Source: Bacteroidota bacterium (GTDB lineage Bacteria; Bacteroidota; Bacteroidia; Bacteroidales; SZUA-534). Taken from it: a stretch of DNA of 64,000 nt. The notes under the pieces were generated by a model. That model saw only the letters and a list, made by a program, of their open reading frames with translations. It was not told where the DNA came from and searched no databases. Below, in pieces: positions 22,305-43,696 of this stretch. Each line of letters opens with the position of its first letter. The stretch's first letter is position 1. The position numbers were made by a program, and so were the translations under genes. The stretch is taken from contig QKGS01000067.1 in assembly GCA_003250355.1 (NCBI GenBank), positions 186,001-250,000 on the forward strand, read 5' to 3'.

Positions 22305-22582
22305 AATTTTTTTTTGATTTTTTAAATTAATTCTACTCGTTCTTAATAATTATTCTCTACAAAAATTATGTCCCTTAGTAATAGTTTCCCAACATCGTAT
22401 CAACTTTTAAAAATTAAACATACACACATCGCCATATTGCTATAGCACAACATGTTACCGACATAGTTAGTATATACAAATACACTAATTATGCCTCTGA
22501 TTCACATAATTAAAAAGTCAAATGGAGTTATTTACGAACTCATTTAGCCTTTATTCCCGAAAGCATTATTATAATATAATGT
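22305..22582 (-). other. Long leader between cobalamin riboswitch and ThiC-family gene
   Basis: About 280 AT-rich bases with no open frame of substance, no TPP aptamer (no CTGAGA element) and no clear intrinsic terminator on the minus strand. It presumably forms the expression platform or is the remnant of a deleted first gene. Confidence 0.45.
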
Positions 22583-22768
22583 TAAGGCAGGTCTTCCGGC
22601 TCTCCCAATTTTCATTACCTTCCCATTCCTCTTACATGAACAGTGGTGTGAGTTATGAAAACTTAACGTAAATAATTACGTCATTGGGATTACGGCTGCG
22701 GGTACAGCTCCCGAATTAAACGGGATTCCCTATTAAGGTATTCTCTGTTGTGAAAATATCCACCTTCG
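22583..22768 (-). promoter_or_regulatory. Cobalamin (adenosylcobalamin-class) riboswitch
   Basis: Read on the minus strand, the element contains the invariant blocks of the B12 aptamer in order: GGTGGATATTTTC near the 5' end, AATCCCG...TTCGGGAGC, CTGTACCCGCAGCCGTAA, CACCACTGTT, GGGAAGG and finally GCCGGAAGACCTGCC (consensus GCCAGGAGACCTGCC), which is the B12 box. A TACATTTG -7 promoter box lies just upstream (22772-22779 on the plus strand, reverse complement). It faces the ThiC-family gene, so expression of that gene should fall when cobalamin is plentiful. Confidence 0.9.
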
Positions 22769-22845
22769 CCACAAATGTAATTTTATTTTTTTTATAATGT
22801 AAAAACAAACTACTATATATTTTGTAAACTCATATATAAACAGTA

Positions 22846-41274: not shown

Positions 41275-42462
41275 TCAATAAGTTTCATTATATATTTCAG
41301 CCATTATTTTTATCCCTTTGCAAATATCTTCAGGTTCACAACACGAAAAGTTGAGGCGTAATGTATTTACATCATTTTTATTAATATAAAATGGAACTCC
41401 CGGAATAAATGCAACATTACGTTTCAATGCCTTTTCAAAAAAACGAATAGAAGAGAAACCCTCAGGCATAGTTGCCCAAGTAAACATTCCTCCTTTAGAG
41501 CGAGTGTATTTTACCTCTTCCCCAAAATATTTATCAATACACTCAAACATAACCATGGCCTGTTTTTTATAAGCTGTGGTAACCTTTTGTAAATGTTCTG
41601 CAATATTGTTGTTCTTTAAAAAATCGATAACTACACATTGAGAGAATACATTAGTATGCAAGTCGGCTGCCTGTTTAGCAGTTTCGAGTTTATTAATTAT
41701 TTCATTATTTGCTATAATCCAACCTATTCGAAACCCCGGAACTATCATTTTTGAAAACGACCCAAGTAAAATTGTATTATCAGGAGCGTATGTGTAAATA
41801 TTTGGTGGCAAATTATCTTCAAAACTTATTTTACCGTAAGGGTCGTCTTCTATTATTAACGAATCTGTTTTTTTTGCATAGCTTGCAATTTCCTTTCTTT
41901 TCTCATTCGAGTATGTAACACCACTTGGATTTTGAAAGTTAGATATAAGGTAAGTGAACTTACTGTTACATATAGCTTCTTTCCATTTTTCAATATTTAT
42001 ACCGTCATAGTTAAGTTCAATAGGCTTAAATACCGGATTGTACATTGAAAAAGCCTGTATAGCTCCTAAATACGAAGGTTCTTCAATAATAATCTTATCG
42101 GCAGGGTTAATAAAAACTTTGCCAATAAGGTCAAGAGCCTGTTGCGAACCGGTGGTAATAAGTATGTTCTCAACAGGAATATTAATTCCTTGTGAATTGT
42201 AAAAACTCGAAATTATTTCTCTTAACTCGGGCAATCCAAAGCTGAGACTGTATTGTAATGCTGTATTTGGGTTGCTGTGTAATACACGGGCAGCAGACCG
42301 GGCTAGGGCTTGTGCAGGAAAGTATTTTTTATTAGGTAAGCCACCAGCAAACGAAATTATTTCTTTGTTGGTTGCCGACTTCAATATGTCGCGAATAAAC
42401 GACCTTGGAACCTGATTAATTCGTTCCGAAAACTTTGCTTCAATACAGCTTTTCTGTGTCAT
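41275..42462 (-). CDS. PLP-dependent aminotransferase, class I/II (LysN/MocR-like fold), under leucine-rich leader control
   Basis: 395 residues. Fold-type I aminotransferase marks: ISFAGGLPNKKYFP, ALQYSLSFGLPELREIISSFY, ILITTGSQQALDLIGKVFINP, IEEPSYLGAIQAF, YLISNFQNPSGVTYSNEKR, IIEDDPYGKISFE and the PLP-binding lysine in LLGSFSKMIVPGFRIGWI. The opening block resembles 2-aminoadipate aminotransferase/LysN and aromatic or branched-chain aminotransferases of subgroup Ib; no N-terminal DNA-binding domain is present. Two leader-peptide/terminator attenuators, both rich in Leu codons, lie directly upstream. A branched-chain amino acid substrate is therefore the best inference; alpha-aminoadipate remains possible. 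Confidence 0.88.
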   Translation of the reverse strand: MTQKSCIEAKFSERINQVPRSFIRDILKSATNKEIISFAGGLPNKKYFPAQALARSAARVLHSNPNTALQYSLSFGLPELREIISSFYNSQGINIPVENILITTGSQQALDLIGKVFINPADKIIIEEPSYLGAIQAFSMYNPVFKPIELNYDGINIEKWKEAICNSKFTYLISNFQNPSGVTYSNEKRKEIASYAKKTDSLIIEDDPYGKISFEDNLPPNIYTYAPDNTILLGSFSKMIVPGFRIGWIIANNEIINKLETAKQAADLHTNVFSQCVVIDFLKNNNIAEHLQKVTTAYKKQAMVMFECIDKYFGEEVKYTRSKGGMFTWATMPEGFSSIRFFEKALKRNVAFIPGVPFYINKNDVNTLRLNFSCCEPEDICKGIKIMAEIYNETY

Positions 42463-42490: not shown

Positions 42491-42530
42491 CTAAAAAGCC
42501 CCTTGAATTGTATATCAAGGGGCTTTTTAG
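42491..42530 (-). terminator. Attenuator terminator 2, 28 bases before the aminotransferase start
   Basis: Perfect 16-base arms (CTAAAAAGCCCCTTGA/TCAAGGGGCTTTTTAG) with an 8-base loop; on the minus strand the 3' arm ends in T5AG. It lies between the stop of leader peptide 2 and the aminotransferase ATG, the position of a transcription attenuator. It is symmetrical, so it could also work on the plus strand. Confidence 0.8.
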
Positions 42531-42551
42531 TTTGCTTATTGAATGTATACA

Positions 42552-42632
42552 TCAATATCCCCTCAGCTTCCTGTTAAGTAGTAGTGCTAATAGTAATGCT
42601 GCTGAAAGGATATTTGTATTGTTAATGATCAT
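42552..42632 (-). CDS. Leader peptide 2 (Leu-rich, 26 residues)
   Basis: A short frame on the minus strand: begins MIINNTNILSAA, continues LLLALLLNRK and ends LRGY before TGA at 42552. It has eight Leu codons, six of them within LLLALLL, plus three Ile codons, and is followed 21 bases later by a perfect terminator stem, the classic architecture of amino acid attenuation. Leu-tRNA shortage would stall the ribosome in the LLLALLL block. No separate promoter is seen between terminator 1 and this frame. Confidence 0.7.
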   Translation of the reverse strand: MIINNTNILSAALLLALLLNRKLRGY

Positions 42633-42660
42633 TCTGTTTATATGGTTTTGAAAAATCTGC

Positions 42661-42696
42661 AAAAAAATACCCCGACTCGGTAAACCGGTCGGGGTA
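42661..42696 (-). terminator. Attenuator terminator 1
   Basis: On the minus strand TACCCCGAC-CGG-TTTA-CCG-A-GTCGGGGTA forms a 12-pair stem with one bulged A, followed by T7. It lies 36 bases after the stop of leader peptide 1 and upstream of leader peptide 2. Confidence 0.8.
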
Positions 42697-42731
42697 CAAT
42701 ATTTTAAATTATACATAGCTACACCGGTACA

Positions 42732-42791
42732 TCATCTGTTGACTAACAGAAGGGCAAGGGCTAGTGCGTTATGTAATGTTGTTTTTGTCAT
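42732..42791 (-). CDS. Leader peptide 1 (Leu/Ala/Val-rich, 19 residues)
   Basis: Minus-strand frame MTKTTLHNALALALLLVNR followed by TGA. Leu makes up 6 of 19 residues, in an ALALALLLV block. It sits 7 bases downstream of a TACATTTG -7 promoter box and upstream of terminator 1. Composition and position indicate an attenuation leader responding to Leu (and perhaps Val/Ala) supply. Confidence 0.68.
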   Translation of the reverse strand: MTKTTLHNALALALLLVNR

Positions 42792-42798
42792 TTGTTTG

Positions 42799-42806
42799 CA
42801 AATGTA
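42799..42806 (-). promoter_or_regulatory. -7 promoter element of the attenuator-aminotransferase transcript
   Basis: TACATTTG on the minus strand fits TAnnTTTG; the matching -33 TTTG is weak. Its box ends 7 bases before the leader 1 ATG, so the leader mRNA would be nearly leaderless. Confidence 0.45.
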
Positions 42807-42862: not shown

Positions 42863-43696
42863 TTAATCAAGTACTCCAAATACCCGCTCATTAAGCTCTT
42901 GTACAGGCCTTGCATTATTTACAGGCATAGCACCGCTCAATGCTTTAATTTGCTCTGCAGAAGCTTCCATACATTTTCTGCGAACAAACCAATTAACCCC
43001 TTCAGTACATGGCGGAGTTGTTAATGAACCTTCGTATATATAAAACTCATCGGTTGTTTTAAATATATTTCCCGGGCATATTTCTGAAGTAATAATGCTT
43101 TTATTACCCTCAGTTGTAGGCATATTTGCAATTATCCCTTTTAAAAACTCATTCTCTTTACCTTTTTTGAAAAATACTCCAATAACAGATATTTCTCCTT
43201 CATCAGAAACGTGAACAAAGTGTACTTCCGATGGCATTGGTTCTCCATCGATAGTATGTTCACTAGGGCAGTGAAAGTGAAATTGTTTAAGTGTAAACAC
43301 CTTTCCGTTTACCTCAAGCTTGTTACTGTCGGAAGCAAAGTTTACTTGTACCGAATGACCATTGTTAATAAACTCAAGACCTGTAAAGCATTTGTATGAA
43401 CTTTTAATTTTCACATCGGTTGATATTGCAAGGCTCGATGTTAAATCTATCGGCGACTGACGCTCTCCATTACATGTTGAGTATGCCGGGCAAAGGTTGG
43501 CCCAGTTTTCGGGTCCACTCTCTCCTTCGTAGGCCCAATGGGCATTCTCCACAGCATGAGCCGAATCGTCATGAGCTGCATTTAGTTCTGCATGAGTATT
43601 TTCATGGTCGGCAGGGTGGCTCTTTTTTCCAGTCGAATTGCATGAAAAAAACGTAATGGTTATAACACTAAGTAAGATTAAATTTAATGTTTTCAT
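42863..43696 (-). CDS. Alpha-carbonic anhydrase lipoprotein
   Basis: 277 residues. The N-terminus MKTLNLILLSVITITFFSC is a lipoprotein signal (Cys19), followed by a His-rich linker (residues ~25-55, seven His). The enzyme domain has HWAYEGESGPENWANLCPAY, GERQSPIDL, FHFHCPSEHTIDG with the first two zinc His, EVHFVHVSDEGE with the third, then YEGSLTTPPCTEGVNWFV, the T-T-P-P-C substrate pocket. It interconverts CO2 and bicarbonate outside the cytoplasm, lipid-anchored in the envelope. Monocistronic; it ends upstream of the attenuator promoter of the aminotransferase gene. Confidence 0.95.
   Translation of the reverse strand: MKTLNLILLSVITITFFSCNSTGKKSHPADHENTHAELNAAHDDSAHAVENAHWAYEGESGPENWANLCPAYSTCNGERQSPIDLTSSLAISTDVKIKSSYKCFTGLEFINNGHSVQVNFASDSNKLEVNGKVFTLKQFHFHCPSEHTIDGEPMPSEVHFVHVSDEGEISVIGVFFKKGKENEFLKGIIANMPTTEGNKSIITSEICPGNIFKTTDEFYIYEGSLTTPPCTEGVNWFVRRKCMEASAEQIKALSGAMPVNNARPVQELNERVFGVLD

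Follow-up and report, generated by a model that had tools for sequence, protein, structure and literature searches.

Two probable leader-peptide attenuators in series upstream of an aminotransferase gene in Bacteroidales

The window analysed here, a stretch of 64,000 nucleotides from a member of the Bacteroidales, carries on its minus strand an aminotransferase gene preceded by two short open reading frames (ORFs), each followed by an intrinsic terminator. A promoter-like box lies in front of the first ORF, and each ORF holds a block of codons for alanine and branched-chain amino acids (Table 1). A leader ORF together with its terminator is called a unit below. The aminotransferase ATG lies 28 bases 3' of terminator 2. 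The upstream neighbour in the window, a carbonic anhydrase by Pfam and without NCBIfam match, is encoded on the same strand; its end at 42863 leaves 57 bases to the box. The gene downstream of the aminotransferase lies on the opposite strand. Elsewhere in the window a Cobalamin riboswitch (RF00174) is found at 22569-22782 on the minus strand, with 86.3 bits. The elements before the aminotransferase had been described in a sequence-only reading, whose coordinates and element order were borne out to the base when the minus strand was re-read; its 26-residue leader 2, perfect 16-base terminator and ATG 28 bases further on were all recovered. For terminator 1, the run of seven T stands as described, but the stem is predicted to fold into 13 pairs with one bulged base rather than into the 12 pairs given.

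Table 1. Elements of the aminotransferase locus in the window.
Feature	Coordinates	Strand	Basis
Presumed promoter -7 box TACATTTGC	42798..42806	minus	Sequence; box matching at least 6/7 before leader 1 in 17/24 tandem loci
Leader ORF 1 MTKTTLHNALALALLLVNR, 19 codons, ATG 42791, stop TGA; A/L/V codon block	42732..42791	minus	Sequence and detector
Antiterminator 1, 5' arm TACCGGTG, begins 3 bases past leader 1 stop	42722..42729	minus	Predicted fold; p 0.23 alone; first-unit arms of relatives near stop
Antiterminator 1, 3' arm GACCGGTT, within 5' arm and loop of terminator 1	42683..42690	minus	Predicted fold
Intrinsic terminator 1, stem and run of seven T	42661..42697	minus	Sequence and fold
Leader ORF 2 MIINNTNILSAALLLALLLNRKLRGY, 26 residues with ALLLALLL, stop TGA; L/A/I codon block	42552..42632	minus	Sequence and detector
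Unit 2 protector hairpin, arm 1 AATATCCTTTCAGC, inside leader 2	42601..42614	minus	Predicted fold
Unit 2 protector hairpin, arm 2 GCTGAGGGGATATT, ends at leader 2 stop; includes antiterminator arm	42554..42567	minus	Predicted fold
Antiterminator 2, 5' arm TGAGGGGA, last codons of leader 2	42558..42565	minus	p 0.117 alone; matching arm covaries in 18 f68 relatives
Antiterminator 2, 3' arm GCCCCTTG, in 5' arm of terminator 2	42516..42523	minus	Predicted fold
Intrinsic terminator 2, perfect 16-pair stem, 8-base loop	42491..42530	minus	Sequence and fold
Aminotransferase, 395 aa, PF00155, ATG 42462	41275..42462	minus	Profile and similarity searches

The 344-nt region has a folding energy of -96.6 kcal/mol, compared with -56.9 +/- 4.9 kcal/mol for shuffled sequences (z -8.1; 0/100 shuffles as low), and its predicted fold as a whole is the terminated state. 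Unit 1 is predicted to form a two-part antiterminator, ACCGGT...ACCGGT with an inner helix. For unit 2, the predicted folds comprise the pairing of the two protector arms, seen in the window by predicted fold only, the alternative pairing of the two antiterminator arms, and terminator 2 as the end state. No riboswitch or leader family of Rfam reaches its gathering score in the region, and in 17 loci only tRNAs reach the cut-off. Among 16 sub-threshold Rfam matches, most of which look like chance, the best relevant ones fall on unit 2 (42491-42625, minus strand), namely Thr_leader with 32 bits (cut-off 55) and His_leader with 27.5 bits (cut-off 49).

Orthologues of the aminotransferase were collected at a threshold of E 1e-100 (1e-95 in one of the three carrier-family searches). 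The resulting 38 distinct genes comprise the gene of the window itself, one gene from the family sample (20 genomes), 12 from the order sample (393 genomes) and 24 from three carrier families (71, 23 and 100 genomes); 20 of the 38 loci belong to a single family, f68. A class-level search of 396 genomes matched the own genome alone at E 1e-105, an order-level search with another query gave matches (10/391) that all lie in genomes already in the sample, and a peptide-pattern search of the named genome collection returned only two distant relatives, with 27% and 25% identity. Up to 560 nt upstream of each orthologue were scanned with two detectors, both restricted to ATG starts and both designed after the first examples had been inspected. 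The strict detector required an ATG leader with at least six Leu/Ile/Val codons in a dense block and a terminator within 90 nt, and the second detector counted Ala as well as Leu/Ile/Val. Shuffle controls consisted of 40 rounds of dinucleotide shuffling, that is, 1,520 regions. The upstream stretch of L067 is cut by a contig end and that of L069 comprises 322 nt; L012, with a hydrophobic short ORF but no detector-accepted terminator, was scored as having no unit.

With the Ala-counting detector, 53 units are found upstream of the 38 orthologues, two in 24 loci, one in 5 and none in 9, against single units in 2/38 reverse-strand controls and 1 unit in the 1,520 shuffled regions. A pair of leaders, which the sequence-only reading had proposed to seek before orthologous aminotransferases, is present in 24 of 38 cases, and over these tandem loci both leaders have nearly the same composition in Ala, Val, Leu and Ile. 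The strict detector finds 42 units (at least one in 26 loci, two in 16), none in 38 reverse-strand controls, and 2 units but never a pair in the 1,520 shuffled regions. When windows from the loci at large were scanned, 48 of 1,058 held a unit and 2 held two; most of these are the leaders under study, and reading of the list leaves 7 unrelated chance matches with one unit each. Of the nine loci without a unit by detector, L067 is truncated by its contig end, which leaves 8/38 with full upstream sequence and no unit; L010, L013 and L059 each show just one. By eye, the other two of the five single-unit loci gain a second: L060 has another unit, and L078 shows an upstream terminator at the edge of the stretch, its leader 1 lying outside. 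Only for the tree were both scored as having two units.

The gene that precedes the leaders varies among loci whereas the tandem pair is kept. Since the pair follows the aminotransferase and not the gene before it, terminator 1 is not part of the upstream gene. Within f68 the terminators are mostly unit-specific, of the GCCATTCTC type in unit 1 and the GCCCTTTCC type in unit 2, with a few variants. As the units mostly keep their own terminator sequences, neither is a recent duplicate of the other. On a maximum-likelihood tree of the aminotransferases, the state of two units requires 2 changes, compared with 9.6 when labels are shuffled, and tandem units are found in both deep branches. One reading of this distribution is an old pair that may have been reduced or lost in one sub-branch; the tree is rooted by midpoint only, and so we infer the order of gain and loss events. 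In L070 and L068, leader 2 appears stretched between its start and the A/V/I block, and the extra sequence, which in L070 has CCCC and GGGG segments, looks as if a small element had been inserted into the leader ORF.

The box TACATTTGC is taken here to be a -7 promoter box of the Bacteroidetes type, TAnnTTTG. Within 45 nt before leader 1, a match of at least 6/7 to TAnnTTTGY occurs in 17/24 tandem loci, compared with 6.9 in shuffles, and all 17 boxes start 13-17 nt before the ATG, a distance at which shuffles give 1.05/24; in the window this distance is 15 nt. Among equal matches the one nearest to the ATG was kept, and shuffles were handled alike. Before leader 2, a box is found in 5/24 tandem loci against 7.2 in shuffles, and at 13-17 nt in 3/24 against 1.05. 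The exact TAnnTTTG occurs in 4/24 loci before leader 1 and in 0/24 between the units. In the window, the T run of terminator 1 contains a partial promoter-like match, TTTTTTTGC, 35 nt upstream of the leader 2 ATG, which calls for caution. Over the tandem loci the boxes favour a start of transcription before leader 1 and not before leader 2, in agreement with the earlier proposal that the two units stand in series on apparently one transcript. The carbonic anhydrase gene lies on the same strand and ends shortly before the box, so read-through from it is possible. The spacing from box to ATG suggests that the 5' untranslated part before leader 1 is very short or absent, in which case translation of leader 1 may take place on an mRNA that is nearly leaderless.

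Relatives also carry candidates for the competing structures that attenuation would require. In 18 f68 relatives, the unit 2 antiterminator is a 14-pair helix that joins the stop-codon region of leader 2 with the 5' arm and loop of terminator 2, and this helix and terminator 2 are mutually exclusive. It is paired in 87.9% of 247 cells, compared with at most 51.1% when slid by 1-3 columns. Of its 14 pairs, 6 are changed on both sides (6/500 shuffles as high), and there are 19 double-change cells against 6.5 in shuffles (0/500 as high); further pair types are not above shuffles (120/500 as high). In unit 1 of the 18 f68 relatives, a leader arm reading Ile-His-Ile pairs with a stretch that holds part of the antiterminator. 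This hairpin, which by analogy is in the place of the protector hairpin of classical attenuators, is 95.1% paired, against at most 54.2% for slid versions, with a covariation score reached by 4/500 shuffles; just one of its pairs is changed on both sides, and 310/500 shuffles are as high. All rows in both covariation tests come from f68. A unit 2 protector in f68 (GUG...CAC) is 83.3% paired, above slid versions; it was dropped as a candidate since a slide of -3 columns gives a higher covariation score.

When the antiterminator arms were compared with shuffled arms over all loci, the duplex was better (p<=0.05) in 19/24 second units, 7/24 first units and 3/5 single units. Among leaders upstream of ilvD, 13 of the 17 that could be tested (terminator detected) passed. 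The two antiterminators of the window do not beat shuffled arms (p 0.23 in unit 1 and 0.117 in unit 2), and not being significant alone, the case for them rests on the relatives. Setting each terminator against possible antiterminators, as the sequence-only reading had suggested, thus gives a covarying competitor for unit 2 in 18 relatives and a weaker one for unit 1, but no significant pairing in the window itself. Relative to the leader stop, the arm begins at a median of 0 in first units, about the end of the stop codon, and 10 nt before it in second units. The second antiterminator overlaps the end of leader 2, in relatives also its stop codon, and the first lies at or just after the stop. 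From the end of the A/V/L/I block to the antiterminator arm, the median distance is 14 nt in first units and 8 nt in second units, about the downstream reach of a stalled ribosome.

The codon content of the leaders points to what is sensed. Ala occurs in the cores of 32/42 aminotransferase leaders picked by Leu/Ile/Val alone and of 46/52 picked with Ala counted; L060, in which the choice of leader is uncertain, was excluded from the Ala and spacing counts. The cores without Ala (6/52: one of L003, both of L007, both of L058 and that of L059) mean that Ala sensing is not universal. Leaders upstream of ilvD in the same order have V/I/L-rich cores with Ala in 0/20 (17 genomes), and the four leaders recognised in 8 leuA loci hold Leu/Ile and no Ala. 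Outside f68, Ala is still present in 9/15 aminotransferase leader cores against 0/20 for ilvD. Close relatives are not independent, so Fisher values overstate the certainty, and the contrast between gene types is the argument. The 20 ilvD leaders come from 24 loci found and 20 scanned, with G057 (wrong ORF) and G009 and G019 (near copies of G011) dropped; three of the 20 (G008b, G023 and G011) have no detected terminator, though stems are visible. The leuA leaders are ORFs in L080, L082, L084 and L085, two of them with a detected terminator, from 8 main loci in which short ORFs in L083 and L086 were left out. In the own genome, leuA has no leader in the 700 nt examined, and ilvD (L037) has a single unit. 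Tandem leaders are also seen upstream of ilvD in G387, G008 and G003 (upstream loci L024, L026 and L025): both leaders have terminators in G387, the second stem lacks a clear T run in G008, and the second leader has its own TATATTTG box in G003.

Leucine-specific sensing was rejected as a general account, since relatives use Val and Ile as much as Leu. The codon bias had been read as Leu/Val/Ile and as a sign of a branched-chain substrate; the branched-chain link stands, but the signature among orthologues is Ala, Val, Leu and Ile and not just the last three. As the codons match the pathway products in the case of ilvD and leuA, alanine and branched-chain amino acids are predicted for this aminotransferase. 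The closest solved relatives of the enzyme, nearly full length, are the PH0207/KAT II homologue (E 2e-92) and LysN (E 5e-84), which agrees with its earlier description as LysN-like, and its best named relatives are 2-aminoadipate, kynurenine and multiple-substrate aminotransferases. K238 and R24, residues that we take to have functional roles, are invariant in 11 aligned orthologues, and R24 aligns with an Arg of LysN. In 5/38 relatives the gene adjoins ilvD or an ilvB-like gene. It lies directly behind ilvD in L009 and L011, followed by a frame that is ilvB-like by its first residues, in an apparent ilv operon without own leader units. In L014, L017 and L057 it lies behind a gene resembling the acetolactate synthase large subunit, which is partial in these loci and scores below curated cut-offs. 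The genes adjoining ilv genes fall in the sub-branch of the tree in which the pair may have been reduced or lost. Leader codons and gene neighbours together favour Ala and branched-chain substrates rather than 2-aminoadipate, and the enzyme is probably an alanine/branched-chain amino acid transaminase. A role as a stand-in for a missing IlvE was considered and gave no sign: class IV aminotransferases (PF01063; IlvE and the other enzymes of this family were counted together) are present in 29/29 genomes searched, carriers included.

We interpret the locus as a 5' leader in which two complete transcription attenuators of the ribosome-mediated type, one after the other, control a single aminotransferase gene, a reading to which we give a probability of about 0.8. 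Leader-peptide attenuation, as first proposed for this locus, is supported by the leaders, the terminators and the antiterminator that covaries in relatives. Transcription would begin immediately upstream of leader 1. With ample charged tRNAs for Ala, Val, Leu and Ile, the ribosome would reach the leader 1 stop and cover the antiterminator arm, and with the arm covered terminator 1 would form and most transcripts would end there. A ribosome stalled in the A/V/L/I block would leave the arm free to pair with the 5' arm of that terminator, so that RNA polymerase would continue. Leader 2 would then repeat the test of leader 1, with a ribosome at its stop codon masking the 5' arm of the antiterminator, and the gene would be made only by polymerases that pass both units. 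If the units let through fractions p1 and p2, the output would be p1 x p2, which gives a lower leak and a steeper response. Reading the same amino acids twice would thus likely yield a multiplied, very low-leak and pseudo-cooperative response. We know of no leader-peptide attenuator that senses alanine. The more specific proposal, that the conserved pair, both members reading Ala/Val/Leu/Ile, is a ribosome-based two-stage amplifier that includes alanine, is old in the order and recurs before ilvD, seems to us to have slightly less than an even chance.

Other readings of the same elements have to be weighed. Regulation might be the work of unit 2 only; unit 1 would then be an independent short transcript (a micropeptide gene or a small RNA) finishing at terminator 1, with a weak promoter between the units. 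Such an arrangement would fit the partial box before leader 2 in 5/24 loci, the window included and 3 of them at 13-17 nt, the weaker antiterminators of first units (17/24 not significant), the single units of L010, L013 and L059, and the clear TATATTTG box before the second leader of the ilvD tandem in G003. Against it, the box at fixed spacing before leader 1 is seen in 17/24 loci, whereas that before leader 2 is not above the 7.2 of shuffles, and exact boxes are confined to leader 1 (4/24 against 0/24 between the units). Unit 1 moreover travels with the aminotransferase while the upstream neighbour changes, and it has its own conserved protector hairpin and the same A/V/I/L codons as unit 2. 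We regard this arrangement as unlikely. Slightly less probable still is a true AND gate of different amino acids, for example Leu/Ala/Val in unit 1 and Ile/Leu/Ala in unit 2. The sequence-only reading had left the choice between an AND gate and a graded response, and in the window leader 1 lacks Ile and leader 2 lacks Val. Over the 24 tandem loci, however, the two leaders are almost equal in composition (leader 1/leader 2: A.29/.26, V.23/.25, I.31/.29, L.17/.20), so the leaders more probably test one input twice in succession than combine different inputs in an AND gate.

Two further explanations dispense with attenuation as the function of the leaders, and both appear very improbable. The strong stems, the AT-rich intergenic stretch and the gene upstream on the same strand would suit ordinary tandem terminators that insulate the aminotransferase from read-through, the small ORFs being due to chance; covarying antiterminators would then serve no purpose, and leaders dense in A/V/I/L with terminators occur in 29/38 orthologues against 1 unit in 1,520 shuffled regions. 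The hydrophobic character of the leaders could instead mean that their products are functional micropeptides, such as membrane peptides, with RNA structure secondary. Most leaders, however, have only 17-31 residues with short cores, and their sequence diverges with composition kept. That composition also tracks the downstream gene, with no Ala before ilvD or in leuA leaders, and the conserved Ile-His-Ile of f68 leader 1 coincides with an RNA pairing arm. Serial attenuation by two leader peptides thus remains the preferred reading. The original interpretation is partly supported: it appears right in kind, and the comparison refines it in three respects (alanine, the same signal read twice, an antiterminator at the stop codon).

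In classical attenuation one leader is followed by one terminator. The attenuators of ilvGMEDA and leu in E. coli and those of the ilvBN type combine a leader ORF rich in codons for the product amino acid with an intrinsic terminator, a competing antiterminator and a protector hairpin. The locus described here resembles them in the first three of these parts: an ORF with a run of codons for the presumed products lies between the promoter box, recognised by sequence, and the gene, together with an intrinsic terminator and, for unit 2 in relatives, a competing antiterminator. For the protector hairpin the support differs by unit: covariation for unit 1 in f68, a weak case for unit 2 in f68, and a predicted fold in the window. 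It differs from them in that two full units precede one gene, Ala codons stand among the branched-chain ones, the leader 2 stop codon of relatives falls within the unit 2 antiterminator, and the regulated gene is a single aminotransferase gene not of the IlvE fold class. Among the matches listed in our literature search, whose coverage leaves most subscription journals outside, there is no case of serial amino-acid leader-peptide attenuators before one gene. A comparative study of 2010 by Lopatovskaya and co-workers may include cases from Bacteroidetes.

Tandem attenuation as such is known. The mgtCBR leader of Salmonella has tandem attenuators that respond to ATP and proline; in 2012 the authors regarded it as a singular example (PMC3641672). 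Like our locus, it combines two short ORFs with two attenuators in a single leader RNA. The signals in mgtCBR are different, however, and its stem-loops are described as not resembling intrinsic terminators (PMC3641672), whereas both units here have intrinsic terminators and share roughly one codon set. By the proxy of codon composition in 24 loci, different signals of the mgtCBR type are not found here. Tandem homologous riboswitches are described as pairs of complete sensors for the same ligand in which each sensor has an expression platform of its own, giving a pseudo-cooperative or more digital response (PMC9481103), and tandem T-boxes are documented, with modes of action called unknown by the source (PMC7583486). 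The likeness lies in two complete sensors of one signal with separate expression platforms, and the difference in that these RNAs sense directly, whereas a leader peptide and proposed ribosome stalling would do so here (PMC9481103, PMC7583486). The terms 'leader peptide' and 'attenuator' do not occur in the main text of PMC9481103. A survey of 2010 noted that in several Gammaproteobacteria the rimP leader carries a second, tandem terminator (PMC2965389). The novelty first claimed for the tandem design is therefore limited, since tandem attenuators are known from mgtCBR and from riboswitches; it holds for serial amino-acid leader peptides, of which there is none among the matches listed.

For bacteria outside the classical models, the same survey states that demonstrated leader-peptide systems were until then limited to Proteobacteria and Actinobacteria, and it added Firmicutes (PMC2965389). 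Within the phylum, clues of leader-peptide attenuation before amino acid operons are reported for a Flavobacterium (PMC9723704), and for Bacteroides there are short ORFs that resemble leader peptides (PMC7366714). Our locus resembles these candidates in having short ORFs upstream of a gene in the same phylum, the operons of the former being for amino acid biosynthesis; unlike what those sources present as clues only, it has a tandem design and an aminotransferase as its target (PMC9723704, PMC7366714).

The present locus and its relatives extend the comparative record of attenuators beyond Proteobacteria, Actinobacteria and Firmicutes. Leader codons would also be of use in predicting enzyme substrates, here pointing to an alanine/branched-chain transaminase. 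If the proposed mechanism is true, these bacteria would sharpen tRNA-charging signals by repeating the test, a ribosome counterpart of tandem riboswitches.
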